From the NCBI RefSeq assembly GCF_014203735.1, contig NZ_JACHJQ010000008.1:1-64000 (forward strand): a stretch of DNA of 64,000 nucleotides, written 5' to 3'. The DNA is from Actinophytocola algeriensis (GTDB lineage: Bacteria; Actinomycetota; Actinomycetes; Mycobacteriales; Pseudonocardiaceae). Shown in pieces: positions 19,728 to 63,524 of this stretch (position 1 is its first letter; each line of letters opens with the position of its first letter). The notes beneath the pieces are model-generated. The model was not told where the DNA came from. It saw only the letters and a list, made by a program, of their open reading frames with translations, and did not search any database. Position numbers and translations under genes: made by a program.

Positions 19728-19856
19728 CCCGGCGACCCGGCCGCGGAGCGAGTGGAGGAGAGGGCTTTCCTCCGCCTTTTCTGCCTGTTCTGTTCGGGTT
19801 CGAGTGGCGATCATCTACATGGAACGCCATCGATCACATCGATACCCGGAGCGCCC

Positions 19857-21924: not shown

Positions 21925-21971
21925 GCCGGATTCCCGCTGTCGTCACAGTTCCACGAGAGGTGAAACATTCG

Positions 21972-27521: not shown

Positions 27522-27576
27522 CCGGGGCGCCCGATCGCCCGTCCGCCGCACGACGACACACCCTGGGAGCACGGCC

Positions 27577-30500: not shown

Positions 30501-33500
30501 CCGCAACCGCGTGAGCAGCGCGACCGGACTCGCGTTGCCGGTCAGCACGGTGTTCGACCATGCGACCGTGGCGGCGCTCGCCCGGTTCATCCTGTCGGAG
30601 CAGGACTCCCGAGCCGGCGCGGAACCGGACACCGGCGACGAGCTGGACGGTGAGCTGGACGATGGCCGGAGCCTGTCGCGGATCGCCGCACGGCGCGCGT
30701 CGGGGGCCGGGGCGGCCGACCCGATCCCGCTGTCCTTCGCACAGCAGCGGCTGTGGTCGCTCAACCAGATGATGCCGGACAGCCCGGCCTACAACGTGGT
30801 CATGTCGCTCGCGATGGACGGACCGCTGCAGCCCGCCGCGGTGGGGAATGCCGTCAACGAGATCGTCCGGCGGCACGAGGTCCTGCGCACCACGTTCCCC
30901 AGCACCGACGGCAGGGCGCGGCAGGAGATCGCGCCCGGCATCACCGTCCCCACGCCGGTGGTGGACCTGTCCGAACTCCCCGACGAGCAGCGGCAGGCCG
31001 AGTTCGAGCGGCTGGTGGGCCTGGAGGCCCGGCGTGTCTTCGACCTCGCGGAAGGGCCGTTGCTGCGGGTGACACTGTTCCGCTTCGGTCCGCTGGCACA
31101 TCGCATGGTCCTCAACGTGCACCACATCGTCGCAGACGTGTGGTCGGGCGGGGTGCTGGCCAGGGAGATGGCGGCGGCCTATGACGCGTACGCAGGCGGA
31201 CGGTCGCCCATGCTGCCCGCGCTGCCCGTGCAGTACGCCGACTACGCGTTGTGGGAGCGGAGCTGGTTCGACGACAAGCGGCTGGCGGCCCGGCTAGCGG
31301 GTCTGCGGGAACTGGTCGGCGACGGCACGACCGGAGTGCGGCTGCTCACGGACCGGCCACGACCCGACGTCCAGCGTTTCCAGGGTGGCAGCCTGAGCTT
31401 CGAGGTCGGCACGGATCTCCTCACCCGGTTGCGCTCGTTCAGCATCGAGCACGGCCGCACGCTCTTCACCACACTGCTGTCCGCGTTCAAGGTCGTGTTC
31501 TACCGCTACGCGGGCGACATCGAGGGCACCGGTGACGTGATCGTCGGGACCGCGATGGCCAACCGGCGGCACGATGCCGTACAGGACCTCATCGGCTTCT
31601 TCGTGAACACCGTGGTCCTCAGGACCAACCTCGGCGACGACCCCACCGTCGCCGAGGTGCTCAGCCGGGTGAGCGACGTGGTCAAGCAGGCGCACGACCA
31701 CCAGGACGTGCCCTACGACGCGGTGGTGGCCGAGCTGGCCCCGAACCGGGGGATGACGTCCAACCCGTTGTTCCAGGTCGTCTTCGACATGAAGCGGCAC
31801 AGCGGCGGTCCTGGGCAGGGCCCGGACTCCTTTGTGGACGTCGTGGAGGTCCACAACGACACCGCCAAGTTCGACGTCGAGGTCTCGGTGCTCGAGCGGC
31901 GCGACTCGTTGCTCGTCGATGTCGAGTACAACAGCGACATCTTCGACCACGGCACCGTCGAACGGCTCCTCGAGGGGTACCGGGTGCTGCTCGAGGTGTT
32001 CGCGGGTGCACCAGACCGGCGGGTGTCCGAACTCCCCGTGCTGTCACCCGCGCTCGAGCGTCAGGTCGTCGTCGAGTGGAACGACACCGCCCGGGAGTAC
32101 CCCGCCGAACGGATGCGGTGCCTGCACCGGCTGATCGAGGATCAGGTCGACCGGACGCCGGACGCGGTCGCGCTGACGTTCGAGGGCGAGGAGATGACCT
32201 TCGCCGAGCTCGACCGCCGTGCCAACCGCGTGGCCCACCGGTTGCGCGGGCTGGGCGTCGACCGGGACCAGCCGGTCGGCATCTGCGTCGAGCGGTCCAT
32301 GGAGATGGTGATCGGGCTGTTCGGCATCCTCAAGGCGGGCGGCGCCTATGTGCCGATCGATCCGACGTACCCGGCCCAACGGGTGGCGTTCATGCTCGCC
32401 AACGCCGACCCCCGGCTCCTGCTGACGCAGCAGCACCTCATCGACACCATTCCCGCGCACCGCGCCACCACGGTCCCACTGGACCGGGCGGGGGAGTTCG
32501 ACGACGAGCCGGACACCCGCCCTGGCGACGTCGTCGAACTGGACGACCTCGTGTACATGATCTACACCTCCGGGTCCACCGGGCAGCCGAAGGCCGCGAT
32601 GATGACCCATCGCGGCGTGGTCAACCGGCTGCTGTGGCAGCAGGACCACTTTGGACTGACCACGGACGACCGGGTGCTGCAGAAGACCCCGTTCAGCTTC
32701 GACGTATCGGTGTGGGAGTTCTTCTGGCCCCTGTTGACCGGCGCCCGCATGGTGATCGCACGTCCGGAAGGGCACAAGGATCCCGGCTACCTCTCGTCGA
32801 TGATCCAGGAGCACGGCGTCACCACGCTGCACTTCGTGCCCTCGATGTTGCGGGCGTTCCTGCAACACCCCGGGATCGAGCAGTGCGAGTCGATCACCCG
32901 CGTCATCGCCAGCGGAGAGGAGCTGCCGACGTCGTCGATCCAGTCCCTCTACCAGCGGCTGCCCGGGGCGACGATCTACAACCTCTGGGGCGCGACCGAG
33001 TGCTCGGTGGACAGCACCTGCTGGACCTGCCCACGTGACATCGGTGCCACCGCCGTGTCGATCGGCACGCCGATCGCCAACACCGAGATCTACATCCTGG
33101 ACCGGCATCTCAACCCGGTGCCGATCGGCGCACCCGGCGAGGCCTACATCGGTGGAGTCGGCGTGGCCCGTGGCTACTTCCGCAGGCCCGAGCTGACCGA
33201 ACAGCGTTTCGTGCCGGATCCGTTCAGCACACGGCCGGGCGCCACGATGTACCGAACCGGTGACCTGGCGCGGTTCCAGGCCGACGGGTCGATGGTGTTC
33301 CTCGGGCGAACCGACTTCCAGGTCAAGGTGCGCGGCATGCGCATCGAGCTGGGGGAGGTTGAGGCGGCCCTGGCCGAGCACCCGGCGGTCCGCGACGTCG
33401 TGGTGCTGGCCCGCGAGCTCCCGCACGCGGTTGACGACAAGCAACTCGTCGCGTACGTCCTCGCCGAGGACGGGGCAAGTGCTCCGGAGGCGTCGGCCGA

Positions 33501-36500
33501 CGGGCGGGTCGAGGAGTGGCAGGGCCTGTTCGACCAGAGTTACCGGCGCGACGCCGCCTCCGACGAGAGCGACTTCAACATCGTCGGCTGGAACAGCAGC
33601 TACACAGACGAACCGCTGTCACACGAGGAGATGCGGGTCTGGCTCGGTTCGACCGTGGCACGAGTGCTGGCGCTGCGGCCGCGGCGCGTGCTCGAGATCG
33701 GCTGCGGCACCGGCATGCTGCTGGCCCGGATCGCACCGAGGACCACGTCGTACTGGGCGACCGACTTCTCCTGCACTGCCGTGGACTACGTGCGTGACCA
33801 CATCGCACCCACCCTGCCGGATGACTGCGGTGTGCGGCTCCTCCACCGCGCCGCCGACGACTTCGCCGGTCTGGAGAACGAGCGGTTCGACGTCGTGGTC
33901 GTCAACTCGGTGGCGCAGTACTTCCCGGACGCCGCCTACCTGTGTGAGGTCATCGGCAAGGCGCTGGCGTGCCTCTCACCCGACGGCACGCTGTTCCTCG
34001 GCGACCTGAGGAACCTGTCGTTGCTCGACGCCTTCCACGCCGAGGTCGAGCTCGCACGTGCCGAGCCGGGCCTCACCCTCGGCAGGCTGCGTGACCGGGT
34101 CCGGCAGCGGACCGCGCACGAGAAGGAGCTGGTGCTCGCGCCGGAGTTCTTCACCGCGCTGCGCGCCGAGTTCCCGGCGATCTCCAGGGTGGAGATGATG
34201 CTCAAGCGCGGTGACCACCACAACGAGCTGACCAGGTACCGCTACGACGTCGCGGTGCACGTCGGCGCTCCGGGCGGCGACCCGGCCCGCCCGCGACAGG
34301 TGGCCTGGACGTCGATGGACGACGTCCGCCGCGTCCTCTCCGACGACCAGCCGGACGCGCTGGCGGTCGACGGCATCCCCAACGCGCGAATGGCCGCTGT
34401 CAACGGCTTCCTGGCCGCGGCGCGGGACGCCCCCGACGACGCGATCGTCGACGATCTACGTCCGGACATCGCCGCTGATGCCGCCGTCGAACCGGAGTCG
34501 TGCTGGCGGCTCGCCGAGGATCTGGGCTACCTCGTCGAGATCGGGTGGACGGGCGCGGCGACGGACGGGCGGTACCGCGCGACGTTCCTGCGTCCCGGGA
34601 CCGGGCAGGTCGCCGACTGGACGGACCCGGCCGAGCCAGGACGCGCCGCCGCGCGCTACGCCAACAACCCCAGGCTGCCCGGGTTGACCCGCTGGCTGAG
34701 CAGTGCGGTCGCCGCGTTCCTGCGGGACCGAGTCCCGGAGTTCATGGTGCCCTCGGCCGTTGTCGCGCTCGACGAGTTCCCGACCAGTGCCAACGGGAAG
34801 CTGGACCGCGACGCGCTGCCGATGCCACTGCGTGTCCTCGAGTCCAAGGAGGACATGGTCGCCCCGCGCACGCCGCTCGAACGACAGCTCGCGGACATCT
34901 GGACCGACGTGCTCGGACTCGAGCAGGTCAGCGTCGACCGCGGCTTCTTCGCGCTCGGCGGGGACTCGCTGCTCGGCATCCAGATGGTCAGCAGGGCCAA
35001 CGGCCTCGGTATGGCCCTCAACCCCCAGGACGTCTTCCAGAGCCACACCATCGCGGAGCTGGCCGCGCTCGCCGACTCCCGCGGCCCGGTCACGACGTCG
35101 ACCGCGGTCGAACGGGATCCGCGACTGCTGGACTGGGCGCGGTCCCGCTACCCCGACGCCGAGGACGCCTTCCCGGTGACCGGTATGCAGGAGTGGGCGC
35201 TGGAGGCCATCCGGCGGGCGCCGGACTCCGGGGTCTACCTGACCCATCAGCGGTTCCGCTTCTCGGAGAAGGGAATCGACCCGAGCGCGCTGGCGCGGGC
35301 GTGGCAGCACACCGTGGACCGGTTCCCGACGTTGCGGGCCGGCTACGTCCGTGACGACGCGGGGGAGTGGGTCCAGGTGATCCACCGCGGGGTGCGGGTA
35401 CCGGTCGACGCACACGATCTCCGCGCCGCCGCGCCGGTCGAGCAGGAACGTCGTGTCAACGCCTACATCGAGGCGAGGCGGCGGCGCGGCTTCACCGGTC
35501 CGCCACCGCAGACACGCCTGGCCCTGTTCCGCCTCGGCGAGGACGACTACGAGTACGTCCACTTCTTCAGCCTGCCCGCGCAGGACGGCTGGAGCTATCA
35601 GATGATGGTGCGCAACCTGCTCGACGCCTACGAGGAGTTCGCGGCAGGCCGCGAGCCGGTGGTCGTGGCCCCGTCGTTCGCCTATGGCGACTTCTGTGTC
35701 GAGCAGCGGAGCCGGAACACCGAGGAGGCCGAGGCGTTCTGGCGACGGCAGCTGGCGGACGTGGTGCTGCCAGGGCCATCCATCACGTTGCCGGCTGACG
35801 AACGACGAGCCGATGTCGCGACGCCGATCCTGCAGGAGCGGGTGATGGTCCCCCGGGAGACCGCGACCGGGCTCGCCGCGCTGGCCCGGCGCAACGACCT
35901 CAGCCTCAACAGTCTCCTGCACGGCGCCTGGGTCATCGTGCTCAGTGCCGTCACCGGTTCGCCGGACGTGGTCTGTGGTGCCACGTTCTCCGGGCGCAGC
36001 ACCACCTCGGTCGATGTCGACCAGGCGTCGGGCCTCATGTTCAACATCCTCCCGGTGCCGACGACAGTGGACCGGGCGGCCACACTGGTGCCGTGGCTCA
36101 CCGGGCTGCAGTCCACGATCTCGGCCGTCAACGACTACGAGTACATCTCGCCGGCGGCCCTGCACGCGTTGAGCGGAGCCGCGAAGGACGCGCCACTCTT
36201 CGAGAGTTACGTCGTCAGCGAGAGCCTCCCGGGCATGTCGTCCAATTTGGACCGTTTCATGTCCGTACTCGGGGCGTTCCCGATCCAGGTACTGGCCCAG
36301 ACCGAGCACCCGTTGCGGGTCGAGCTCGCGGTCGGCGAGGAGTTCCTGCAGATTTCACTCAACTACCAGGCAGATCACTTCCCGGCGGGTACCGTCGCCC
36401 ACTGGCTCACCCGGTACGTGCGGGTACTGGCGGACATCGCGGCCGACCCGGACCGCACGGTCGGTGAGTTCGTGCCCGATCTCACCGCGCCGGGCCGGTG

Positions 36501-36501
36501 A
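27577..36501 (+). CDS. hybrid PKS/NRPS: KS-AT-ACP-C-A(MT)-PCP-C* (predicted last protein)
   Basis: 2974 residues. It begins with docking helix [22 protein letters not shown] about 37-460 (Cys 193). AT about 547-850 has GHSQGE and YAPHSPHV, a variant of the methylmalonyl YASH motif. There is no reductive domain. ACP Ser is at 969 (GLDSITAM). C1 about 1050-1480 has [11 protein letters not shown] (Val for the usual Gly). A starts near 1506 (A3 [15 protein letters not shown]); the pocket residues I read are D-V-W-H-I-S-L-V-D, close to the serine code. A SAM methyltransferase is inserted at about 1980-2230 ([14 protein letters not shown]) between A8 and A10, as in N-methylating modules. PCP Ser is at 2464 (GGDSLLGI). 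The final C-like domain (about 2533-2974) reads SLPAQDGWS, with Leu 2666 in place of the catalytic His. There is no thioesterase. GTG 27577 has a GGGAG site. Confidence 0.92.
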
Positions 36502-36554: not shown

Positions 36555-36902
36555 GTGTGCCGACCTACGCTCGGCCGGGTGATTTCGCGCACAGTGGACA
36601 GCCGCCGAGCAGAGGAGTTGGCCGCAGTTCTGCGGGAGCTCAGAGAACAAGCGGGTATCACCCAGGAGGAGTTGGCCGATCGTTCGGGCCTCAGCATCCG
36701 CACGATCTCGGACCTGGAAAGAGGAAGAACGACCACGCCGCAGCGGCGGTCGATCGAGCTGCTCGCCGACGCGCTCTGCGTCGACGGGGATTCGTTGGAG
36801 CAGCTACAGCAGGCGGCCAGGAGACGGTCCGTCGCGCAATGTCCGGCGTGCTCGGCCAGGTGGCAGCTGGACGAGCTGGTCCGGCGGGAGAAGCATGGCT
36901 GA
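36555..36902 (+). CDS. XRE-type helix-turn-helix regulator between two synthase genes
   Basis: The 115-residue protein has a canonical XRE/Cro DNA-binding domain ([20 protein letters not shown], then [16 protein letters not shown]) followed by a short tail with a CPAC pair. That tail has only one Cys pair, so it is unlikely to be a zinc ribbon by itself. GTG 36555 is chosen because AGAGGG lies six bases upstream. An in-frame GTG at 36498 overlaps the preceding synthase stop as GTGA. Its stop overlaps the PKS-B start by 8 bases, so it is co-translated with the synthases. It may tune expression of the operon in which it sits. Its target is unknown. Confidence 0.85.
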
Positions 36903-39900
36903 CGAGCACAAGTACGTCGACTACCTCCGCCGCGCGAGCGCCGAGCTGCAGAGTCTGCGCGGGGAGTTGCGGCGGATCCGTGCCCGCGCCGAGGAGCCCA
37001 TGGCGATCATCGGCATGGGCTGTCGTTACCCCGGTGGCGTCACGTCCCCGGATGAGCTGTGGGCCTTGGTCGCCAACGCGGGGGACGCGGTCACCGAGCT
37101 GCCGAGGGACCGCGGCTGGGATCTCGCCCGGCTCCACGATCCTGGCCCAGAGCCTGCCGCGTGGACGAGCTACGTCGGACATGGCGGGTTCCTCACCGAT
37201 GTCGCGTCGTTCGACGCGGACTTCTTCAACATCAGCCCGCGAGAGGCCCCTTCGGTGGACCCGCAGCACCGGCTGTTGCTGGAATGCTCGGTGGAAGCGG
37301 TCGAGCGAGCCGGTATCCCTCTGGACTCCTTGCGTGGCAAGCAGGTCGGGGTGTTCAACGGCATCATGTCCACCGGTGTGCCAGGACAGGTGGCCAGTCT
37401 GGCGGCCGGGCGGGTGGCCTACACGTTCGGCTTCGAGGGGCCGGCACTCACGGTCGACACGGCGTGTTCGTCGTCGCTGGTGGCGTTGCACCTGGCGGCC
37501 CAGGCGTTGCGGCACGGAGAGTGCGACCTCGCGCTGGTCGGCGGGGCAACGGTGATGGCGACACCGGACATGTTGGTGTACTTCAGCCGCCAGCGCGGGC
37601 TGGCGCCCGACGGCCGGTGCAAGTCCTTCGGTGCGACCGCGGACGGCACGGGACTGGCCGAGGGCGCCGGCGTGCTCCTGCTCGAGCTGCTGTCCGACGC
37701 GCGTCGCCTCGGGCATCCCGTGCTGGCGCTGGTGCGTGGCTCCGCGGTGAACCAGGACGGGCAGTCGAACGGGATCACGGCACCGAACGGACCGGCGCAG
37801 CAGCGGGTGATCCGGGCGGCGATGAGCAGCGCGCGGGTGCTCGCGTCCGATGTGGACGTCGTGGAGGCGCACGGCACGGGCACGCGGCTGGGCGACCCGA
37901 TCGAGGCGCAGGCGATCATCGCCACGTACGGTGCGGACCGTCCCGAGGACCGGCCGGTGCTGCTGGGATCGCTCAAGTCGAACATCGGGCACACCCAGGC
38001 CGCGGCCGGTGTCGCTGGCGTCATCAAGATGGTGCAGGCCATGCACCACGGTGTGGTGCCACCGACGTTGCACGTGGACGCGCCGTCACCGCACGTCGAC
38101 TGGTCCGCGGGAGCGGCGGAGCTGGTGACCCGCACGGTGTCGTGGCCGGAGACCGGCCGGCCCCGCCGCGCGGCGGTCTCGTCCTTCGGGCTCAGCGGCA
38201 CCAACGCCCACGTCATCCTCGAGCAGGGCGACGAGCCCGCGGTGCCGGATCCCGTCGACAGGCCGATCGTCACCGGAGTGGCACCCTTGCTGCTGTCCGC
38301 GAAGACCGAGGAAGCGTTGCGAGGACAGGCCGAACGCCTGCGGTCCTGGGTGGACCGTGGCGACACGGTCGCTCCGGTCGACATCGCCGCGGCGTTGGCG
38401 ACCATGCGGCACGCCATGCCGGTCCGGGCTGCCGTGCTCGGCGCGGACCGTGCGGACCTGCTGCGCGGGCTCGACGCGCTGGCGGCCGGCGACGCGGCGG
38501 CGAACGTGTTCCAGGTGGCCGCCCGGCCGGACGGCCACCTCGCGGTGATGTTCACCGGCCAGGGCGCGCAGCGCCCGCAAGCCGGCCAGGGCCTCCACGA
38601 CCGGTTTCCCGTGTTCGCCGAGGCACTCGACGACGTATGCTCCATTGCGGACGAACAGCTCGAGCGGCCACTGAGGACGGTGATGTTCGCTCGTCCGGAC
38701 ACCGCGCACGCCCGCCTGCTGGACCGGACCGACTACACCCAGGCGGCGACGTTCGCTCTGGAAGTGGCGCTCTTCCGGCTGATCGAGAGCTGGGGCGTCC
38801 GGCCCGCCTTCCTCATCGGACATTCGGTCGGCGAGCTGACCGCCGCGCACGTCGCCGGGGTGTGGTCGCTCCGCGACGCCGCGAAGGTGGTGGTCGAGCG
38901 AGGGCGGCTGATGGCCGCGCTGCCGGACGGCGGGGCGATGGTGGCGGTGGCCGCTGCGGAGGACTGGGTGCGCGGCATGCTGGTCTCGCTCGGCACCGAC
39001 GTGAGCGTTGCCGCGGTGAACGGCCCGGCCGCCACCGTGATCTCCGGGGACGGGCGGCTCGTCGACGAGGTCGCGGCGGCCTGCCGGGCCGCCGGTGTCC
39101 GCACGAAACCGTTGCGCACCTCGCACGCGTTCCACTCCGCGCGCATGGCGCCGGTGCTGGACCCGTTCGCCAGAGTGCTGGAATCGGTGGCGTTCCGCGC
39201 ACCCCGGACACCGGTGGTGTCGAATGTGACCGGCGCCCTGCTCACCGACGAGCAGGCGTGCTCGCCCGGCTACTGGGTCTCGCAGGTCCGCGAGACCGTG
39301 CGGTTCGCCGAGGGGATACGCACCCTGCACGGACGCGGCGTGTCCCGCTTCCTCGAGCTCGGCCCGGACACCGCGCTGACCGTGGCCGCACGCACCACGG
39401 TCGAGCAGGTATCGGACTCGCGGTCAGAGCTGTTCACCGCTCTGCTGCGGCGGGGTCGCCAGGACGTCGACGCCGCGCTGTCCGCGCTGGCGTTGCTGCA
39501 CACCGACGGCGTCGCGGTGGACTGGGAGGCGGTGTTCGGCGGGCGGCCCGCGCGCCGGGTGGAGCTGCCCACCTATGCGTTCCAGGGCAAGCGCTACTGG
39601 AGTGCACCAGGCTCGGGTGTGGCCGACGCGGGCGGGCTGGGACTTGACGTCGTCCAGCACCCGTTCCTCCGTGCGGCAGCGGACGTGCCCGGCACACAGG
39701 GTCTCCTGATGACCGGCCGGCTGTCGGTCGAGACACATCCCTGGCTGGCGGATCACGCGCCAGGGGGCAACGCGCTGCTGCCGGGTACGGCGCTCGTCGA
39801 ACTGGCCGCCAGGGCCGGTGCGGACGTGGACTGCCCGGTGGTGCGGGACCTGACCCTGCACACCCCGCTTGCGTTGTCCGGCCGGGCAGCGGCACGGCTG

Positions 39901-42429
39901 CGGGTCGCGCTGACGGCGCCGGACGAGCACGGCGCCCGCTCGATCACCGTGCACTCCCGACGCGAGGACGCGCTGACGGCGGACCCGTGGCTGCTCCACG
40001 CGTCGGGAACGGTGATCCCCCAACAGGTCGTCGTCCCGGAGACCGCGGAGCTCACCGGGGAATGGCCGCCACCCGGCGCCGTCTCGGTGGACCTGGACGG
40101 CGCGTACGAGCGGCTCGCCGGGCACGGTCTCGACTACGGACCGGCGTTCCGCGGTGTGCGCGCGGTCTGGCGCCGGGGCGACGACGTGTTCGCCGACGTC
40201 GCCCTGCCGGACGATCGGCACGGTGAGTCCGCCGCGTTCGTCCTCCACCCGGCGCTGTGGGACGCGGCGGTGCACGCACTGGCGCTGGCCGGTTTCGACG
40301 ACGACGACGGCAAGGCGCGGCTGCCCTACTCCTGGCAGGGCGTGTCGGTCCACAACGGTGGTGCGCTCGCACTGCGGGTCAGGCTGTCGTGGACCGGCGA
40401 GGAGATGCTGTCGATGACCGCGGCCGACCCGTCGGGAGCGCCGGTGGTGACGGTGGAAACACTTCGCCTGCGGGCCGTGTCCACCGCGCGGCTGTCCACA
40501 CCGGTCTCGGCGGGAGAGGCACTGTTCCACGTCGAGTGGCAGCCTGCCCCCCGCGACGGTTCCCCGTCGCTCACTGGCGGATGGGCCGTGATCGGGCCGG
40601 ACGACGCACGGCTGACGGGCGCGCTCCGGCAGTCGTGGGGCGACGGCCACTGGTATCCGGACCTCGCCGCCATGACGCGGTCGCAGGAGTCTGACGTGCC
40701 CGCGCCGGCTGTGGTGGTGCTGGTACAACCGCCGACAACCGAGGTCGGGGCAGGCGTTCCTGCCGCCGTCCGCGCCGCGGTGTCACGCATGCTGTCGTTC
40801 CTGCGTTCCTGGCTGGCCGACGAGCGGCAGACGGCGTCCCGGCTGGTGGTCGTGACGCGTGGCGCGGTGACGGGCGACGCACGCGACGTCGCGGCCGCCG
40901 CCGTCTGGGGACTGCTGCGCAGTGCACAGACCGAACACCCGGGTCGCATCGTCGTGGTCGACCTCGACGGCACCGAGGCATCGGACCGCGCACTGTCCGC
41001 GATCACCCGCATCGACGAGCCCCAGCTGGCGATCCGCGAGGGCGAACTGCTGGTTCCCCGGCTGGCCAGGCTGACGGTGCCGGAACCGGTTGTGCCGTCG
41101 TTGGCGGCCAACGGAACCGTGATGATCACCGGCGCCACGGGCAGTCTCGGCGCCGCGATGGCAGGCCACCTGGTCACCGAGCACGGCGTGCGCAGGCTGC
41201 TGCTGGTGAGCCGCCGCGGTCCCGCCGCCGAGGGCGCCGCCGAACTGGTGGCGGAACTCGGTGCACTCGGCGCGGAGGCGTCCGTCGTCGCGTGCGACGT
41301 GTCCGACCGCGCCGAGCTGGCCACGCTGTTGTCCGGTGTTCCGGCGGACCGGCCGCTGACCGGCATCGTGCACGCGGCCGGTGCCCTGGCCGACGGGATG
41401 ATCGAGTCGCTCTCCGAGGAACGCCTGGACACGGTGTTGCGGCCCAAGGTGGACGCTGCCTGGCACCTCCACGAACTGACCGAGGGACTGGACCTGCGAC
41501 TGTTCGCGGTGTTCTCGTCCCTGTCCGGCACCCTCGGCGGTGCCGGACAGGCGAACTACGCGGCGGCGAACGCCTTCCTCGACGCGCTCGCCGCGCACCG
41601 CCGGGCGCTCGGCCTGCCCGCCCAGTCACTGGCGTGGGGTGCGTGGGAGACCGACGACGGCATGGCAGGCAGGTCGGCCGAGTCCGACCGCGAACGCGTG
41701 GCGCGCAGCGGGTTGCTCGCCCTGCCCGCGAAGGAAGCGCTCGCGCTCTTCGATCTCGGATGGGCCGCCGACGAACCCGTCGTCGTCCCCGCGCGGCTGG
41801 ATGTCACGACCCTCCGGCGGACCTTTCCCGTTGCCGAGCAGGTGCCGCCGCTGCTGCGCGGCCTCATCCGGTCGCCGAGGTCGACGACGGCGGGCACCGC
41901 GGACCGGTCGGCCGCACTCCGCGCCCAGCTGGCGGAGCTGTCCGAACAGGGGCAACGACGCGAGCTCCTTCGCGTCGTGCGCGAACATGTGGCCGCCGTG
42001 CTCGGACACCCGGCACCCGGGGCGGTGACGCCGGACCGGGGTTTCCTCGACCTCGGCCTCGACTCGCTGACCGGCGTCGAGCTGCGCAACCGGCTGGATC
42101 TCGTGACCGGGCTCCGGCTGCCGTCGACCCTGATCTTCGACTACCCGACCTCGCTGGCCGTGGCGGAGCACCTGTGGCGACAGCTGTTCCCGCCCTCGGC
42201 CTCGCGGGCCGGACCCGGCGCCGACGACGCCGGGATCCGGCTGGCACTGACGACGATCCCGGTCGCGCGCCTGCGGGCGGCCGGTGTCCTCGACACGTTG
42301 CTCCGGCTCGCCGAGGAGCCGGGCACGACCGACCCGGCCACCCCGGCCACGCAGTCTACACAGGACTCGATCAGGAAGATGGCGGCCGAGGACCTGGTGC
42401 GGCTGGCGCTCGGCCGCGGCGGTTCGTGA
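36895..42429 (+). CDS. modular PKS-B: one module KS-AT-DH-KR-ACP (predicted module 5)
   Basis: 1844 residues. The N-terminal docking helix is [22 protein letters not shown] is at about 34-455 (Cys 191 in DTACSSSL). AT is at about 548-860 with FTGQGAQ, GHSVGE and SHAFHSARM, the malonyl-CoA signature. DH is at about 922-1200 ([14 protein letters not shown], a complete H-x3-G-x4-P; second motif WDAAVH). KR is at about 1408-1600 ([23 protein letters not shown], Tyr in QANYAAAN). ACP is near 1722 (LGLDSLTGV). The tail ends [18 protein letters not shown], a docking type that fits the N-terminus of the PKS/NRPS rather than the next gene. ATG 36895 has GGGAG upstream and overlaps the XRE gene. Product: an unbranched enoyl extension. 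Confidence 0.93.
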
Positions 42430-42498: not shown

Positions 42499-44700
42499 AT
42501 GACAAGCACGCACGCGCCCCGCCCCTCGTTCAGGAACCTGAAGGAGGTTGCCCAGGTGGCCCCGGGCCGGCACATCCTGGGCGTCGCGAACTTCACCACG
42601 GGCAGCGCGGACCCGAGCGTCGACGAGGGCTACCCGTCGGTCGCGATCCACATGACCGGCTCGGTGGAGGACGGGTTCGCCGAGGTGTGGACCTCGGACC
42701 GGCCTGTCCGGGCCGGACAGGCCGGCTCGATGTCCTACGCGCACGACGGGGAGTTCCTGTTCTGCACCGGCCGGATCCCGGAGACGGCCGACTACGTCGA
42801 GGCCACGGAAGCGGCTTACACCGAGGTACTGGCGCTGACCGGCTCGCTGGGGTATCGACAGCTGGTCCGCATCTGGCACTACATCAGCCGGTTGAACGAA
42901 GAGACCGCCGAAGGGCTGGAAACCTACCGGGCATTCTGTCTCGGCAGGGCGCGGGTCCTCGAGCGGTACGGGATGACCGACGACATGCCCGCGGCGACGG
43001 TCATCGGTTCGCACGGCGGCGGGATCGTGTTCTACTTCCTCGCCAGCAGGGGCGGGACTCAGATCAACGTCGACAACCCCCGCCAGGTACCGCCTTATCA
43101 CTACCCGCGCCGCTACGGCGTGAAGTCCCCCAACTTCGCCCGCGCGACCTACGTGCGATCGGACGACGGCGCGACGCAGATCTACGTTTCCGGCACAGCG
43201 AGCATCCTCGGGCACCGAACGATGAACGCCGGCGACGTCGAAGGCCAGTGCCGACTGGCGCTGGACAACATCGCTTACCTGATCGGCGAGGGCAACCTCT
43301 CCGCACACGGCATCCAGCCGGGCCGCACGCTCGACGACCTGCGCACCGTCAAGGTGTACGTGCGCCGCCGTTCGGACATCGAACGGGTCCAGCGGATCTG
43401 CCGGACGGCGTTCTCCCGATCGGCGGATGTCGTGTTCCTGCACGCCGACATCTGCAGGCACGACCTCCTCGTCGAGATCGAGGGCATCGTCCCGGGCGAG
43501 CGTGCGGTCGAGCGCCGGTCCCTTCCCGGTCCGGTCGCGACGCAGGAGTGGTCGGCGCTTCCCGCGGCCCAGCAACCGGACTGGCATGCGCATCCGGCCT
43601 ACGAGCGCGTCCGGAGCACGCTCTCGGCCGCCCCACCCCTCGTGTCGCCCGACGAGCTGGGTGCCCTGCGCACGGCGCTCGCCGCGGTCGCGGCGGGTTC
43701 CGCGCGGGTGCTGCAGATGGGTGACTGCGCGGAGAGCTTCTACGAGAGCACCCCCGACCAGGTTGCGCTCAAGATCGCCGCGATGGAACGGCTGGCCGAG
43801 CGGTTCGCGGCCAGAGCGGGCCTGCCGGTGGTGAAGATCGGCAGGCTCGGCGGGCAGTACGCGAAGCCGAGGTCGCACGCGGTCGAGGTCGTCGACGGTG
43901 TCGAGCTCCCGGCCTTTCGCGGTCACATGGTCAACGCCGAGACCCCGTCCGCCGAGGCGAGGAGGCCGCATCCCGCACGGATGCTCTGGGCCTACCACCT
44001 CAGCGACGACGTGCAGCGGCTCCTGCGCACGCACCGGAACGGCTCCGCCCACGCCGCGGTGCCCCCGGGACCGTGGTCGAGTCACGACGCTCTGGTCATG
44101 GACTACATCGGTCCGCTGGTGCGGAACGACCCGGCGACCGGCGCCCGGTTTCTCGCCAGCACGCACTTCCCGTGGGTCGGCGAACGGACCGGCGGCATCG
44201 GCGAGGCCCACGTGCTGCTGCTGAGCCTCGTGAGCAACCCGGTGGCGTGCAAGGTCGGGCCCCGGTCGACCCCCGAGAGCGTGCTGGCGCTGTGTGCGTT
44301 GCTCGACCCGGAGCGGGAACCGGGACGTCTCACGTTGATCGCGCGGATGGGCCGCGACGCGATCGGCACCGTGCTGCCACCGATCCTGCGTGCCGTGCGC
44401 GCAGCGCGCCACCCCGTGGTATGGCTGAGCGATCCCATGCACGGCAACACGGTCCGACTGCCGTCCGGCGCCAAGACGCGGTATCTCGACGACATGGTCG
44501 CGGAGGCGGCCACGTTCCGGAACATCGTCGAAGGCCACGGCAACCATGTCGGCGGCCTGCACCTGGAGACCGCGGCGTACGACGTGGCCGAGTGCGCGGG
44601 CGGACCGGCGCCCGGCGACGGCGAACTGGGCAACCCCTCGCTGTGCGACCCGCGGCTGACCATCGCGCAGGCCGCGGCACTCATCGACCGGGTCTTCTGA
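42499..44700 (+). CDS. chorismatase - type II DAHP synthase fusion protein
   Basis: 733 residues in two enzymes. Residues about 1-330 are a chorismatase (FkbO/RapK/Hyg5/XanB2 family). Key positions are Gly 232 (YVSGTASILGH), Cys 319 (HADICRHDL) and Glu 326 (LLVEIEG). Their spacing (87 and 94) matches Gly240, Cys327 and Glu334 of Hyg5, which makes 3-hydroxybenzoate. Residues about 350-733 are a type II DAHP synthase, the first shikimate enzyme: metal Cys 410 in QMGDCAESFYES, KIGRLGGQYAKPRS, HMVNAETPSAEARR, HFPWVGERTGG, KVGPRSTPES, LIARMGRD, DPMHGNTVRLPSG, GLHLET, CDPRLT. One protein thus drives carbon into the pathway and withdraws its end product. ATG 42499 is nine bases after GAGG; GTG 42490 is open. 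It directly precedes the loading-module gene. Confidence 0.92.
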   Translation: MTSTHAPRPSFRNLKEVAQVAPGRHILGVANFTTGSADPSVDEGYPSVAIHMTGSVEDGFAEVWTSDRPVRAGQAGSMSYAHDGEFLFCTGRIPETADYVEATEAAYTEVLALTGSLGYRQLVRIWHYISRLNEETAEGLETYRAFCLGRARVLERYGMTDDMPAATVIGSHGGGIVFYFLASRGGTQINVDNPRQVPPYHYPRRYGVKSPNFARATYVRSDDGATQIYVSGTASILGHRTMNAGDVEGQCRLALDNIAYLIGEGNLSAHGIQPGRTLDDLRTVKVYVRRRSDIERVQRICRTAFSRSADVVFLHADICRHDLLVEIEGIVPGERAVERRSLPGPVATQEWSALPAAQQPDWHAHPAYERVRSTLSAAPPLVSPDELGALRTALAAVAAGSARVLQMGDCAESFYESTPDQVALKIAAMERLAERFAARAGLPVVKIGRLGGQYAKPRSHAVEVVDGVELPAFRGHMVNAETPSAEARRPHPARMLWAYHLSDDVQRLLRTHRNGSAHAAVPPGPWSSHDALVMDYIGPLVRNDPATGARFLASTHFPWVGERTGGIGEAHVLLLSLVSNPVACKVGPRSTPESVLALCALLDPEREPGRLTLIARMGRDAIGTVLPPILRAVRAARHPVVWLSDPMHGNTVRLPSGAKTRYLDDMVAEAATFRNIVEGHGNHVGGLHLETAAYDVAECAGGPAPGDGELGNPSLCDPRLTIAQAAALIDRVF

Positions 44701-44736
44701 GTCGTGACCGGACCTACCCCAGAGGGATGTGGTGAA

Positions 44737-47700
44737 GTGCTGCGCGCAGATCTGATCCGGCCGTTGCCCGAGTTGCTGCGTGCACACGCGGAGCAACGGG
44801 GGGAGAAGATCGCGTTCTCCGACGGGCGGCGGGACGTCAGCTATGCGGCGCTCGAGCAGCGGACCGGTTGGCTGGCCGGACAGCTGGCCGCGCTCGGGCT
44901 GGCCCGGGGTGACCGCGCCGCCATGTGCCTCGGGAACAGCGTCGAGATGGTGGAGAGCTACCTGGCCCTCGCCAGGGCAGGCGCGATCGGGGTCCCGGTC
45001 AACCCGAGGACCAGTGACGCGGAGCTGAACCATCTGATCGAGGACAGCCAGGCCCGCCTGGTGATCACCGACCCGGCCCGCCTCGAGCAGGTGGCCCCGG
45101 TGCTCGCACGACGTCCTGGCACGGTGCTCGTGGTCACCGGCGACGTCGTGGCGCCGGACGCCATCTCGTACGAGGCCGTGGCGGGCACCGACCCCGGGAC
45201 GCCGGCCAGGGACGACCTCGGGCTCGACGACCCGGCCTTCATGCTCTACACCTCGGGCACCACGGGCAGGCCGAAGGGTGTCCTGTCGACCACCCGCAAC
45301 TCGCTCTGGACGATCGCGGCCTGCTACGCCCCGATCCTGGGGCTCTGCGCGGACGACCGCGTCCTCTGGCCGTTGCCGCTGTCCCACTGCCTCGGCCACC
45401 ACCTCGGCGTGCTCGGCGTGACCGCGGTCGGTGCGAGTGCCCACCTCATGGCGGGGTTCTCAGCGGGTGAAGCACTCGAACTGCTGGGGGAGCGGCCTTT
45501 CACGTTCCTCGCCGCGGTACCGGCGATGTACCACCAGCTGGTGCTCGCGGCGCGCGAGCGAGACGAGGTGCGGACCACGTTGCGGAGGTGTCTCACCGCG
45601 GGCGCGGTCGCGCCGGAGTCGCTGCGTGCCGCCGTCCGGGACACATTGGGCGTGGCTCTGCTCGACAGCTACGGCACCACCGAGACCTGCGGGCCGATCA
45701 CCACGAACTGGCCCGACGGTGACCGGGTGCCCGGCTCGTGCGGTCCGCCGTTGCCGGGTCTGCGTGTCCGCGTGGTCGACCCGAAGACCGGGGTGGACGT
45801 TCCGACGGGGGAGGAGGGCGAGGTCTGGGTCCAGGGGCCGAACATGATGCTCGGCTACTACGACGGGGCCGACGGCACGGTCGAGCCGCCCGCGGGCGGC
45901 TGGCACCGGACGGGCGACCTCGCGCACCGTGACGGGGCAGGCCATCTCACCATCACCGGGCGGATCAAGGAGCTGATCATCCGCGGTGGTGAGAACATCC
46001 ACCCCGGCGAGGTCGAGGAGGTGCTGCTCGGCGTGCCGGGCGTGCTGGACGCGGCCGTCGCGGGCAAGCCGCACGAGGTGCTGGGACAGGTCCCCATCGC
46101 GTTGGTGGTACCCGGCCCGGACGGGCTGGATCCTGACCGGTTGTTCGCCGTGTGCCGCGAAAGGCTGTCGTATCACAAGGTTCCCGCCGAGGTGCACGTG
46201 ACGGCACAGGTCCCGAGGACGCCATCCGGCAAGATCATTCGGGGCGAGCTGCCCGGTCTGCCTCGCCGGCTGCTCGCCACGGGCAGTGGCACGCACGAGT
46301 CGCTGTTCCGGTTGGAGTGGACACCGCTGCGCGACACCGGCGACGCGCCGGAGTCGCTCGACTGGGCCGTGCTCGGCGCCGAGCACAGCAGTGGCAGCGT
46401 CGCGTCTCACCCCGACCCGTGGGCGTCGTACGATCAGGCGCGTTCGTGGTTGGCCGACCGGGATCACGACGGCACGGTGCTCGTCGTGGTGACCAGGGAT
46501 GCCGTTGACGGGGTGTTCCAGGCAGCCCATCACGACGGGCACCAGCTCAGGCAACAGGCGTGGACGCGGTTGCGGTCGTTACAGTTCGATCACCCCGGGC
46601 GGCTCGTCCTGGTCGACATCGACAGCGCGACGATTCCGCGTGCGCGGCTCGCCGCGCTGGTGGCGTCGGGGGAGCCCCGGCTCCTCGTGCGCGACGGGAT
46701 CACGTTGACCCCACGGCTGGGCAAGGCCAGGATGCCCGGCAGGAACAACCCCAGGATCGGACCGGACGCGGCGGTGGTCCTGACGGGGGCGTCCAGTGTC
46801 GTCGGCGCGGCGGTGGCCGGTCAGCTGGTGACCGGCTACGGCGTACGACGGCTGCTCCTGGTCGGTGCGGTCACGGACGGTGTCCGGGAGCAGGCCAGGA
46901 CGCTGACCGAGCTCGGCGCCGACGTGCGGGTCGTGCCCGGTGAGCTCACGGACGGCCGGACCGCGGCAGCGGTGGACACCGAGGCGGCGGGCCCGATCGG
47001 CGCCGTCGTCCACGTCGCGGGCACCGGCGAACCCACCACTGTGGACGACCTGCGTGCGGTGTACGAGATGGCAGGCGGCACGGAACTGCCCGTCCTGGTG
47101 GTGATCTCCGCTCTCTCGTCGACACTGGGAGCGGCCGAACCGGAGCGGGTGGCGGCGGCTGCCTCCGCTGCCGCCCTGGTACGCCGCCATCTCGACCGCG
47201 GCGGTGCCGGAACTCACCTTGCCACGGTCCGGTGGGAGGACGGGAGCGACGACGCCATCCCGGTCCGGGATGGACTGGCGTTGTTCGATGCCGCGCTCGC
47301 GGCGGATGACGCCTGTCTGTTCGCCCTCGGTGCGGCGAACGCCGAATCGGCCCCGATGCTGCCCAGGACGACCGAGGACGAGTCGGTGCGCTGGACGACC
47401 GCGGACGAGTCGGTGCGCGTGGAGCTGGCGCGCCGCCTCGCCGGGATGGCGGAGAGCGAACGGGACGCGGACATCATGGGCCGCGTTCGCGCCGCAGTGG
47501 CGGACGTGCTGGGTGACGCGGCACCCGAGGGCCTCGACGTGGCCCGCGCCTTCCGGGAACTGGGGCTCACGTCCATCACGGCGGTGCGGCTGCGCAACCG
47601 GCTCGCCGAGGCGACCGGTCTGCCACTGCCCGCGACAGTGGCGTTCGACTACCCGACGCCGGCAGCGCTGGCACACCACCTCCGGCGCCGGCTGACCGGC

Positions 47701-50700
47701 GAACCGGACGCCCGCGTCGCGACAGCGCCACCGGCTGGGCCGGTCGCCGACGAGCCGGTGGCGATCGTCGCGATGGCCTGCCGTTACCCGGGCGGCGTCC
47801 GCACACCGGAGGACCTGTGGCGGCTGGTGGCCGACGGTGTGGACGCGATCACGCCATTCCCCGACAACCGTGACTGGGACCTGACCGCCCTGTTCGACGC
47901 CGATCCCGACGCGGCGGGCACCTCCCACACGCGGCACGGAGGTTTCCTGCCCGACGCGGGAGAGTTCGATCCGGCCTTCTTCGGCATCTCGCCCGGCGAG
48001 GCTCTGGTGATGGACCCGCAGCAGCGACTGTTGCTGGAGGTGTCGTGGGAGGCGTGCGAGCGGGCGGGTATCGATCCGCTCTCGTTGGCGGGCACCCGCA
48101 CCGGGGTGTTCACCGGTCTGATGCACCACGACTACGCGGAGCGGTTCAGCGGGGTGTCCCCGGAGCTGCACGGCTATCTGGGCACGGCCGCGGCGGGCAG
48201 CGTCGCTTCGGGCCGGGTGGCGTACGCGCTGGGCCTCGAGGGGCCCGCGGTGACCGTGGACACGGCGTGTTCGTCGTCGTTGGTTGCGTTGCACTGGGCG
48301 GCTCAGGCGTTGCGGCAGGGTGAGTGCGATCTTGCGCTGGCCGGCGGTGTGGCACTCATGGCCTCCCCCCAGGTGTTCATCGACTTCTCCCGCCAGCGCG
48401 CGCTGTCCGCCGACGGACGATGCCGTGCGTTCGGTGCGGACGCGGACGGCACCGGTTGGTCGGAGGGCGTCGGGGTCGTCCTGGTGGAGCGGCTGTCGGA
48501 CGCCGTGCGCAATGGGCGTCGGATCTTGGCGGTGGTGCGTGGTAGTGCGGTGAACTCGGACGGTGCGTCGAACGGGTTGACGGCACCGAATGGTCCGTCG
48601 CAGCGGCGGGTGATCCGGCAGGCGTTGGCCAGTGCCGGGTTGTCCCCATCGGATGTCGATGTGGTGGAGGCGCATGGCACGGGGACGACGTTGGGTGATC
48701 CGATCGAGGCACAGGCGTTGCTGGCCACCTACGGCCAGGACCGCGCGCGGCCGGTGTTGCTGGGTTCGTTGAAGTCGAACATCGGGCACACGCAGGCTGC
48801 CGCCGGCATTGGCGGCGTCATCAAGATGGTGATGGCCCTGCGTCACCGTGTGGTGCCCAAGACCTTGCACGCGGCTGAACCGTCGCCGCACGTGGACTGG
48901 TCGTCGGGTGCCGTCGAGCTGGTGGCGGAGAACGTGGACTGGCCGTCGGTGGACAGAGCGCGCCGGTTTGGCGTGTCGTCGTTCGGGATCAGTGGGACGA
49001 ACGCGCACGTGATCGTCGAGGAGGCGCCCACGTCCCCGCTGCCGTTGCCTGCCACCGACGTGGTGGTTCCGGCGGTGGTGCCGTGGGTGGTGTCGGCGAA
49101 GTCGGAGGCGGCGCTGGACGGGCAGCTGGCACGGCTGCGTTCCTTTGTGGACACTGCGGAGCCGTCGCCGGTCGATGTGGGTTGGTCGTTGCTGGATCGA
49201 TCCGTGTTCGCGCATCGGGCAGTTTTGCTGGCGTCGGCGGATGGTGTGGTCGAGGCGGCGCGCGGAGTGGCTGCGGGCGGCGGGCTGGGAATGTTGTTCC
49301 CGGGTCAGGGCGCGCAGCGAGCAGGGATGGGCCGCGAGTTGCATGCGCGGTTCCCGGTGTTCGCGCGGTCGTTCGACGAGGTGGTGGACCGGTTCGATGG
49401 TCTGCGGGCGGTGATGTGGGGTCAGGATGCCGCGTTGCTGGACCGGACGGAGTGGGCGCAGCCCGCGTTGTTCGCGCTCGAGGTCGCCCTCTATCACCTC
49501 GTCGAGTCGTGTGGTGTCGTGCCGGACTACGTGGCCGGGCACTCGATCGGTGAGATCGGCGCCGCCCATGTGGCAGGTGTGTTGTCCCTGCCGGACGCGT
49601 GTGTGCTGGTCGCGGCGCGGGCGAGGTTGATGCAGGCACTGCCCCCGGGAGGGGCGATGGTCGCCCTCCAGGCCACCGAGGCCGAGGTGCTGCCGCTCCT
49701 GACCGAAGGGGTCGCGATCGCGGCGGTCAACGGACCGCACTCGGTTGTGGTGTCCGGTGTGGAGGACGAGGTCGCGGCGGTCGTCGCACGGTTGGGTGGA
49801 CGCAGGGCGTCCCGGCTACGGGTGTCCCATGCGTTCCACTCGCCGTTGGTGACCCCGATGCTGGACGAGTTCCGTGCTGTGGTGTCGGAGTTGTCGTTCG
49901 CTCAGCCGCGAATTCCGTTGGTGTCGAACGTGACCGGTGCGGTATCGGATCCCGGCCTGGTCGCTTCGCCCGGGTACTGGGTGCGGCACGCGCGCGAGGC
50001 AGTGCGGTTCGCGGACGGTGTGACCGCGATGGTCGACGGTGGCGTGACCGCACTGCTCGAGCTCGGCCCCGACGGTGTCCTGTCCGCCATGGCCACGCAG
50101 ACAGCACCGGAGGCGGTGGCGATCCCGGCGCTTCGCAAGGATCGCGGTGAGGAGGCGGCGTTGCTCGCCGCACTCGGCCAGCTCCATGTGGGAGGTTCGC
50201 CGGTCCGGTGGCAAGCGCTGTTCGACGGTACCTGCCCGGCCCGGGTCGATGTTCCGACGTATGCCTTCCAGCGAGACTGGTTCTGGTTGACATCCGGTGC
50301 TTCTGCCGCCGGTGACCTGCGCGCCGCGAGCCTGGCGGCCACCGGTCACCCGTTGCTGGGCGCCGCGGTGGAACTGGCCGCTGACGGCAGGAGCCTGTTC
50401 ACCTCCATCTTGTCGGTGCGGTCGCATCCCTGGCTCGCCGAACACACCGTGCGGGACCGGATCCTGGTGCCCGGCGCGGCGTTCGTCGAGCTGGCGATCC
50501 GTGCGGGCGACGAGGTCGGCTGCCCGACGGTCGCGGAGCTGACACTGCAGACCCCGCTGGTGCTGCCCGACGAGGGCGGCGTCCGACTGCAGCTGACGGT
50601 CGACGCACCGGATCGGGACGGCCGCCGCGGGTTCAGCGTCTTCGCCCAGGACGAGCGCGGCACGAGCGGGTGGACACGGCACGCCGTGGGAGTGCTGTCA

Positions 50701-53700
50701 CCGGAAACAGCTGCCGCCGGGTCCGGGCTCACGGAATGGCCGCCGCCCGGCGCGGAACTGGTCGAGGTGGCCGGGCTGTACGAGCGGCTGCGGGCCCAGG
50801 GCTACGGGTACGGTCCCCGCTTCCAGGGGCTGCGGGCGGCATGGCGACGCGGCGACGAGTTGTTCGCCGAGGTCGCCCTGCCGGAGAACACCGACACCAC
50901 CTCGTTCGGCATCCACCCCGCGCTGCTCGACGCGGCACTGCACATCACCCACCTCGGCAGCCCGGGCGCCGACCTCCGCCTGCCGTTCTCCTGGACCGGG
51001 GTGACCCTGACGGCCACCGCCGCCGCGGCGCTCCGGGTCCGCGTGACGAGCCTGGCCGAGGACACCGTGTCGATCCGGATGGCCGATCCGACCGGTGCGC
51101 CGGTGGCCTCGGTGACCTCCCTGGTCCTGCGGAACGGCACGGCGGAGCAGGTCCGCGGTGCGGGTACGGCGGTGCGGGCGGCCCTGCACGAGGTCGAGTG
51201 GACTCCGGTGACCACGACCGGCGACGTCGTGACCGGTTGGGCGGTCCTCGACACGCGACCCGGGACGGACGTCCGTGCCGCACTCGCCGCGATCGGCACG
51301 GCACCTGAGGTCGTCGTGGTGCACTGCGTGCCGCGCGAGGCAACCGACGCCGGTACCGCCAGGGACGTCACCGCCCACGCGCTCGACCTGATGCACGCGT
51401 GGCTGGCCGACGAGCGGTTCGGCTCATCCCGGCTCGTGTTCGTCACCCAGCGCGCGATGGCCACCGCACCGGACGACGACGTGCGGGACCTGCCGCACGC
51501 CGCGGTCTGGGGTCTGGTGCGCTCGGCACAGACAGAACACCCGAACCAGTTCGTCCTGGTCGATGCCGAGTCAGGTGCCGACCGAGCGCTCCTCGCCGCC
51601 GCCATCGGAAGCGGTGAGCCACAACTGGTGGTGCGGGACGGTGCGGTGCTGTCGCCTCGCCTGGTCGCCATGCGCCGCCCGGTGGCCGAGCCGGCGACCA
51701 TCGACCCGGACGGCACGGTGCTCGTCACCGGCGCCACCGGGGCACTCGGCCGGGTCGTCGCCCGGCATCTCGTGCACGCGCACGGCACCCGGCACCTACT
51801 GCTGACGAGCCGCAGGGGCGTCGCGGCCGATGGCGCCGAGGAACTGGTCGCCGAACTGGAGTCGCTTGGTGCCACCGTGGCACTGGTAACCTGTGACATC
51901 GCGGACCGCGCGGCACTGACGGCCGTTCTCGCGACCGTGTCGCCCCAGCACCCGCTCACCGCCGTGGTGCACAGCGCGGGTGTCCTCGACGACGGCGTGC
52001 TCGAGGCACAGACCCCGGAGCGCCTGACCACGGTCATGCGTCCCAAGGTCGACGCCGCGCTCAACCTGCACGAGCTGACCCGCGACAGCCGGCTCGACGC
52101 CTTCGTCCTGTTCTCGTCCGTCGCGGGCACCCTGGGCGGCGCGGGCCAGGCCGGCTACGCGGCCGCCAACGTCTTCCTCGACGCGCTGGCACACCACCGG
52201 CGTGCCGCCGGTCTACCCGCGACCTCGGTGGCGTGGGGCCCGTGGGCGGACGGCGGCATGGCAGGCGGGCTCGACGACGTCGACCGCCTGCGGATGCGGC
52301 GTTCGGGTCTGACCGAACTGTCCATAGCGGACGGTGTGACGCTGTTCGACGCGGCCCTGGTGTGCGACCGCGCCGCAGTGGTCGCGGCGCGGCTGGACAC
52401 CGCGTCGATCCGCGCCGACGCCGGGAAGGTGCCGACGATGTTGGGCGGCGTGGTGGGCACGCCCGCACGCCGTGTCGCGAACGCGGAAGCGGCGGAAGAG
52501 TCCGTGTCGGCGCGGCGCGTACTCGCGTTGCCGTCGAAGGAGCAGCCCGCGGCCATGCGGGCGCTGGTCGCGGCCGAGGTGGCGACCGTACTGGGGCGTA
52601 ACGGCATCGCGCAGGCCGAGACCGAGCTGTCGTTCCGCGACCTCGGGTTCGACTCGCTCACCGCCGTCGAACTGCGCCACCGGCTCGCCGCGGTAACCGG
52701 CCTCCGGCTGTCGGCGGCGGTGGCCTTCGACCACCCGAACCTCGTCGCGCTGGCGGACCACCTGCACACCGAGTTGCTCGGCAGCCCCGCGCGGGCACAA
52801 CCGGCCGGCGTCACCACGCCGCAGGCCGAACCGATCGCGATCGTGGCGATGAGCTGCCGTTACCCGGGCGGGATCGACTCGCCGGAGGACCTGTGGCGCC
52901 TCGTGTCCGATGGCGCCGACGTCACCTCCGAGTTCCCTGACCGCGGCTGGGACCTGTCCGCGTTGTTCGACCCGGACCAGGAACGGCCTGGCACGTCGCA
53001 CACCCGGCGCGGCGGCTTCCTGCGTGCACCGGGGGAGTTCGACGCGGCCTTCTTCGGCATGGGGCCACGGGAGGCAGTGGCCGCGGATCCGCAACAGCGG
53101 TTGCTGCTGGAGGTGTCGTGGGAGGTGCTCGAGCGGGCGGGCATCGACCCCGCGTCCCTGCGGGGAAGCCGGACCGGTGTGTTCGCCGGTGTGATGCACC
53201 ACGACTACGCGTCTCGCCTCGGGAAGGTCCCCCCGGACCTGGAGGGCTACCTGGGCATCGGGAACGCGGGCAGCGTCGCCTCGGGCCGGGTGGCCTACAC
53301 GTTCGGGTTCGAGGGTCCGGCACTCACCGTCGACACGGCGTGTTCGTCGTCGCTGGTGGCGTTGCACCTGGCGGCTCAGGCGTTGCGGCAGGGTGAGTGC
53401 GATCTCGCGCTGGCCGGCGGTGCGACTGTGATGGCCTCACCGGAGACGTTCGTCGAGTTCTCCCGCCAGCGCGCGCTGTCCCCGGACGGACAGTGCCGAG
53501 CCTTCGCCGACGCCGCGAACGGCGTGGGCTGGTCCGAGGGCGTCGGGATCGTCCTGGTGGAGCGGCTGTCGGACGCCGTGCGTAACGGGCGCCGGATCCT
53601 TGCGGTCATGCACGGCAGCGCGGTGAACTCGGACGGCGCGTCGAACGGGTTGACGGCGCCGAACGGTCCGTCGCAGCAGCGGGTGATCCGGCAGGCGCTG

Positions 53701-58075: not shown

Positions 58076-63490
<5,415 letters not shown>

Positions 63491-63524
63491 CACTCCATCC
63501 CGGTGCACGAGGAGCGTGAACGCA

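Follow-up and report, generated by a model that had tools for sequence, protein, structure and literature searches.

The window, as we call the 64,000-nucleotide stretch of Actinophytocola algeriensis DNA analysed here, carries a gene in which an FkbO/Hyg5-family chorismatase is joined to a class II DAHP synthase (Table 1). Full-length fusions are also encoded by Streptomyces nymphaeiformis SFB5A (locus L001, genome G297; 742 aa, 67% identity to the window protein) and by genome G373 (732 aa, 68% identity). The fusion is real and apparently rare in the genome samples searched. Quite probably the protein is bifunctional and supplies a precursor to a PKS/NRPS cluster, a reading that includes 3-hydroxybenzoate as the starter, one origin for the fusion and a selective value in co-expression.

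Translation of the gene gives 733 residues and a single terminal stop, confirming the uninterrupted 733-codon gene described in an earlier note on this DNA. The same note had recognised the first shikimate enzyme joined to a consumer of chorismate, and both family models score over their cut-offs. TIGR04444 (FkbO/Hyg5 family) matches residues 23-331 with 428.2 bits against a curated cut-off of 325. PF01474 (class II DAHP synthase) scores 381 bits against a cut-off of 27 in two stretches, the best covering residues 526-728, and residues 355-727 align with PA1901 (6bmc) in one stretch using phmmer. The Pfam and NCBIfam scans of the fused protein list no chorismate mutase domain at E <= 1. Third-position GC is 0.85-0.97 in the 60-codon blocks printed, the joint included. 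From residue 318 up to residue 382 the window gene has no in-frame ATG, GTG or TTG, which leaves the DAHP synthase half without a start codon of these three kinds close to the joint. The linker of the L001 fusion has a GTG (residue 336), at which re-initiation could still occur. The window linker has 19 residues (aa 332-350), against 13 in both other fusions.

Table 1. Genes of the cluster and domains of the fused protein, with window positions and the basis of each assignment
Feature	Position	Strand	Basis or remark
Class V aminotransferase / cysteine-desulfurase-like protein	19752..21113	+	Also in G373 and G297 clusters
Alpha/beta-hydrolase	21166..21924	+	Domain scan
PKS, one KS-AT-DH-KR-ACP module	21960..27521	+	Domain scan
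PKS-NRPS: KS-AT-ACP, C-A-methyltransferase-PCP, second C at end	27499..36501	+	Second C placed by eye
PKS, one KS-AT-DH-KR-ACP module	36895..42429	+	Domain scan
Fused chorismatase-DAHP synthase gene, 733 codons	42499..44700	+	Translation, Pfam/NCBIfam scans, homologous fusions in L001/G297 and G373
FkbO/Hyg5-family chorismatase domain, aa 23-331	42565..43491	+	TIGR04444; alignment to 5ag3/5a3k/4bps; family comparison
Linker, aa 332-350	43492..43548	+	Other fusions 13 residues; weak likeness to G066 DAHP synthase leader
Short-form (type IIB-like) class II DAHP synthase domain, aa 351-733	43549..44697	+	PF01474; alignment to 6bmc, 5uxm, 5huc, 2ypo, 2b7o
PKS: AMP/CoA-ligase, KR-like region, ACP, then two KS-AT-DH-KR-ACP modules	44704..58050	+	Predicted aryl-starter loading module
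PKS, one KS-AT-DH-KR-ACP module	58076..63490	+	Start codon inferred; ORF listed from 57917
EryCIII-like glycosyltransferase	63516..64000	+	Runs past window to about 64790

The cluster around the fused gene

The cluster extends from the aminotransferase-like gene at 19752 to the glycosyltransferase gene at 63516-64790. In total it encodes five KS-AT-DH-KR-ACP modules and one KS-AT-ACP-C-A-methyltransferase-PCP-C protein, and we take the alpha/beta-hydrolase to be a probable type II thioesterase. The stop codon of the fused gene ends at 44700 and the GTG of the loading PKS, its first listed start, lies at 44704. The gap is 3 nt, which agrees with the placement directly upstream of the loading-module gene given in the earlier note.

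Both other fusions lie in clusters with the same gene order, as called by a simple GC-frame script. In G373 the identity is 60-73% over the nine genes compared (for the PKS-NRPS taken over 1990 of 3000 residues), and one additional predicted gene separates the first PKS from the thioesterase. The loading PKS of G297 is shorter (2740 vs 4448 aa), and its PKS5 counterpart was identified from position, as PKS5 itself matched another PKS best.

If all modules are active, the product would be a glycosylated 3-hydroxyphenyl pentaene with an N-methyl amino acid attached; its closure to a tetramic acid is a guess. In the PKS-NRPS the methyltransferase follows the adenylation domain and no thioesterase domain is listed, so the release step is not obvious. 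No identity for the product was found in the literature searched. A Hyg5 gene and a CoA-ligase loading domain are also features of the 3-hydroxybenzoate-primed PKS clusters of Saccharopolyspora, Lentzea and Pseudonocardia (PMC8944477). Those clusters are predicted to make large polyenes, whereas in the window a short PKS chain ends in an NRPS module and the chorismatase is fused.

A divergent group of genes at 7876-16283 on the minus strand of the window encodes an MFS transporter, an LLM-type oxidoreductase, a weakly DapB-like protein, an adenylation enzyme, a condensation-like protein and a weakly SagB-like oxidoreductase. It may be a second small biosynthetic cluster.

Residues and predicted activities of the two halves

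Alignment to the solved structures places G232 at Hyg5 G240, where FkbO has A244, and C319 at Hyg5 C327, which is Ala in FkbO and Ser in the 5a3k sequence. The half thus carries both residues used here to recognise the CH-II type, Gly at Hyg5 240 and Cys at Hyg5 327. A third position differs: V168 is found where Hyg5 and FkbO both have Gly. Gly-164 of Nat-hyg5, one of three residues typical of 3-hydroxybenzoate formers (PMC7170507), probably maps to V168, provided that the numbering offset of 9 seen at the other two residues applies at this position as well. Across the 44 chorismatase loci compared, the position is Gly in 35, Val in six, Ala in one and unreadable in two. The valine is common to the three fusions and the separate relatives L067, L071 and L082 (the genes of L007, L009 and L008, respectively).

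Formation of 3-hydroxybenzoate by the chorismatase half is therefore likely rather than shown, since the third typical residue is probably V168. Unlikely, by comparison, is another product, either a dihydrodiol as made by FkbO or another hydroxybenzoate, which would mean that the starter is not 3-hydroxybenzoate. Such a product would fit the substitution of Val for Gly throughout the six-protein clade, but at G240 and C327, the two positions at which the solved Hyg5 and FkbO sequences differ, the half has the Hyg5 residue. The loading module also speaks against it: FkbO-type starters undergo further reduction, whereas no catalytic S-Y-N motif was found in the KR-like region of the loading PKS and no ER is listed there. 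The 3-hydroxybenzoate starter proposed in the earlier note is thus favoured by G232, C319 and the adjoining loading module, and V168, as a probable departure from the typical Gly, weighs against it.

The chorismatase half shares the family model, the equivalents of G240 and C327 and the association with a CoA-ligase-loaded PKS with the Hyg5-type (CH-II) chorismatases Hyg5, Cuv10 and Nat-hyg5. It differs from Hyg5 in having V168 in place of Gly and a DAHP synthase attached at the C-terminus, an attachment that the passages of PMC7170507 consulted do not mention.

In the DAHP synthase half, C410, H648, E690 and D717 align with C87, H369, E411 and D441 of Mtb AroG, which we take to be the metal ligands of that enzyme. 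R449, E562, R563, K585 and R616 correspond to R106, E217, R218, K240 and R271, the PEP-binding residues of PA1901 (PMC6435475). Both sets are kept in all three fusions, and the earlier statement that metal-binding residues are conserved is upheld by the alignment and extends to the PEP site. Together with the PF01474 score, these residues identify the half as a class II DAHP synthase.

The half is of the short form. Between the two aligned blocks it has 11 residues (between 514 and 526), against 55 in the Mtb AroG chain 2b7o (between 190 and 246); the absence of the alpha2a/alpha2b insert and the one-stretch alignment to 6bmc place it with type IIB. PA1901 lacks the same insert, belongs to the group called type IIB, and is not inhibited by Trp, Tyr or Phe (PMC6435475). 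Like PA1901/PhzC, the window protein has the same PEP residues and no insert, but PA1901 is free-standing and the window DAHP synthase is preceded by a chorismatase and a linker. As the insert carrying the feedback sites is missing, the half would by inference escape aromatic feedback; the earlier idea of an escape from feedback control stands on this likeness to the insensitive PA1901.

TIGR01358 gives the fused protein 354.9 bits, below its curated cut-off of 614.7. The separate DAHP synthases L002 (421.6), L003 (523.2) and L018 (402.6) and the L001 fusion (396.8) also fall below it. The window's genome encodes a further DAHP synthase, of the long form, on contig C1; it scores 717.3 bits, over the cut-off.

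Two separate DAHP synthases that are paired with a chorismatase, L008 (G018) and L009 (G066), have the Glu of the GER motif replaced by Ala and Leu, respectively. In PA1901 it is the backbone nitrogen of this Glu that contacts the PEP phosphate (PMC6435475).

Proposed role of the fused protein

The following course of events is proposed. The C-terminal DAHP synthase would condense PEP and erythrose 4-phosphate without aromatic feedback, so that carbon could be drawn into the shikimate pathway even while inhibition holds back the ordinary DAHP synthase of the strain. The remaining shikimate enzymes of the host would lead to chorismate, which the N-terminal chorismatase would convert to 3-hydroxybenzoate and pyruvate, and the CoA-ligase loading domain encoded 3 nt downstream would activate 3-hydroxybenzoate as the starter. 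The selective value of the fusion would most likely lie in co-expression of the two committing steps, not in channelling. We infer both activities, 3-hydroxybenzoate as the product, the lack of feedback, the translational coupling of the ancestral gene pair and the lack of channelling.

Published turnovers bear on the last point. Three CH-II chorismatases turn over at about 0.04-0.22 per s (PMC7170507), against 19.8 per s for PA1901 (PMC6435475), and with such a mismatch a 1:1 fusion would not be flux-balanced. The entry half would have a large spare capacity, and guaranteed co-expression is therefore a better reading than balanced flux or channelling.

Two regulatory alternatives deserve consideration. 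In the first, the fusion would go beyond co-expression: the DAHP synthase half and the attached chorismatase would form a bracket coupling shikimate entry and exit, with tuning of the DAHP synthase by chorismate or 3-hydroxybenzoate or with recruitment of the intermediate enzymes. PA1901 is a dimer, and the arrangement, if true, would mirror the DAHP synthase-chorismate mutase complex in secondary metabolism. We consider it improbable.

The second alternative is more doubtful still: the chorismatase half would be mainly a sensor, with bound chorismate or 3-hydroxybenzoate controlling the attached DAHP synthase. The chorismate mutase domain of chorismate mutase-DAHP synthase proteins is thought to act in this way, and a linker of 13-19 residues is kept in the three fusions. 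Precedents for a DAHP synthase joined to a chorismate mutase are the non-covalent complexes of M. tuberculosis and C. glutamicum (PMC6435475, PMC4281200) and the covalent protein of B. subtilis (PMC5526877). Against a sensor role, G232 and C319 are kept, and PA1901 showed no allosteric response to Trp, Tyr, Phe, phenazine or PCA (PMC6435475). Moreover, only one FkbO/Hyg5-family place is listed in the window's genome (E <= 1e-40), and so the chorismatase half is needed as an enzyme if hydroxybenzoate is made.

Very improbable, finally, is a DAHP synthase half that is catalytically dead or acts on another substrate, for example in the aminoDAHP step of AHBA pathways. Class II DAHP synthases are used in other pathways, but all three fusions retain the metal and PEP residues, the scan of cluster proteins showed no AHBA-type genes, and DAHP is the product that makes sense beside a partner that consumes chorismate. 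A bifunctional precursor-supply enzyme remains the preferred reading.

Related loci and the origin of the fusion

Searches of genome samples for the two-domain architecture, along the lines suggested in the earlier note, found the fusion in three genomes. A pattern scan of one genome per species, with patterns built from a single sequence, confirmed three loci, one of them the full-length fusion of S. nymphaeiformis SFB5A. Among 297 genomes of the window's family (293 with some match; best three candidates scored per genome), both halves fell in one place only in G000, among the matches listed. With two candidates scored per genome, both halves were covered in one place in 2 of 394 genomes of the family of S. 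nymphaeiformis, where G297 was the centre of the draw and hence included by design. In 394 genomes of the class, scored likewise, this was the case for two, G000 and G863, the latter counted as G373 because the contig coordinates are identical. Since the three samples overlap, only two or three candidates were scored per genome and the patterns come from a single sequence, further fusions may exist. The separate relatives examined have the second gene in another frame, which would fit a sequencing or assembly error that joined two genes or, as the earlier note cautioned, hid a stop between the halves, but full-length fusions in two further, independent genomes with different linker sequences rule out such an error in practice.

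The plasmid records gave no fusion: 116 matched, and the two covering at least 80% of the query are Pseudonocardia plasmids on which two genes are annotated. In a distant DNA search, 47 plasmid records matched and not one covered more than 80% of the query; the five rows listed are DAHP synthases.

The loci available for comparison number 44: 30 of the 48 chorismatases over the cut-off in the window's family and all 14 of 14 from the family of S. nymphaeiformis. The search of the window's family had given 62 rows in 47 of 297 genomes; the 18 over-cut-off rows outside the locus reading were covered only by the 297-genome fusion search. We read 1.5 kb on each side of the chorismatase (two of the 44 loci were shorter). 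Three chorismatases are fused, 14 have a DAHP synthase directly downstream, its match beginning within 211 nt of the chorismatase match, five have one immediately upstream, and at 22 the 1.5 kb on either side contains none, apart from one weak opposite-strand match (L090). A chorismatase can thus do without a linked DAHP synthase. A tail of more than 23 residues past the chorismatase match occurs only in the three fusions among the 44 loci. At L073, L076, L081, L084 and L095 long open frames extend 5' of the chorismatase, in whose frame nothing recognisable was found by eye in the printed extensions; N-terminal chorismatase fusions could nevertheless exist at these five loci. The loci with the DAHP synthase gene upstream (L074, L075, L076, L078 and L083) form their own clade in both trees.

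The separate pairs of G066, G018, G088, G539 and G676, drawn from the window's family and that of S. nymphaeiformis, share the two protein families and their order with the fusion, but have their own stops and starts. In four pairs (L009, L008, L027 and L028) the chorismatase stop overlaps a start codon of the DAHP synthase as ATGA or GTGA, in another frame, and this overlapping codon is presumably the one used; the other pairs compared have a gap between the genes. A PKS gene similar to the loading PKS adjoins the pairs of G066 and G088, as in the window.

Because the genes overlap in this way, in different frames, loss of the overlapping stop/start by a frame change is a plausible route to the fusion. 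The window linker resembles the leader that precedes the separate DAHP synthase of G066, which is no more than suggestive as a trace of this origin: 22 of 2000 shuffles did as well in this one of six comparisons, and 196 to 2000 of 2000 in the remaining five. Trees were built from 44 chorismatases and from 32 DAHP synthases (22 linked genes and 10 more, nine without a chorismatase beside them plus L018). A six-protein clade of the three fusions and the three separate pairs with V168 appears in both, with support of 100/100 and 100/99, and the fused clade within it has 93/88 in the chorismatase tree and 89/55 in the DAHP synthase tree. The trees favour a single fusion event, with moderate support in the DAHP synthase tree, and the fusion would most likely have arisen once from an overlapping chorismatase-DAHP synthase pair.

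On the Pseudonocardia plasmid pFRP1-1 the pair has the same families and order as the fusion, but 1.2 kb lies between the genes. The interval (L018:21002-22202) holds a frame with an internal TAG, presumably inositol-3-phosphate synthase-like. A type II dehydroquinase gene lies upstream of the pair, so that the plasmid gathers three shikimate-related genes.

The protein of B. subtilis likewise joins an N-terminal chorismate user to the first shikimate enzyme; it uses a type I DAHP synthase. Here, the partner is a chorismatase and not a mutase as in the B. subtilis and M. tuberculosis systems, and the M. tuberculosis complex is non-covalent and serves feedback control (PMC4281200). Among the open-access papers listed in our searches, no title or abstract start describes a chorismatase-DAHP synthase fusion. 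The earlier note, too, had known of none; its idea is, however, less isolated than it appeared, as separate genes adjoin at 19 of the 44 chorismatase loci and the chorismate mutase-DAHP synthases set a precedent. The fusion is a neat variation on two genes that often lie side by side and does not amount to a system of a new kind. Should both activities be confirmed, it would be a natural single-gene solution to what metabolic engineers do with separate genes, combining an apparently feedback-free entry enzyme with an enzyme that drains chorismate to 3-hydroxybenzoate. Its sequence also offers a specific tag by which to recognise a small family of clusters whose predicted products are aryl-primed, NRPS-terminated polyenes.
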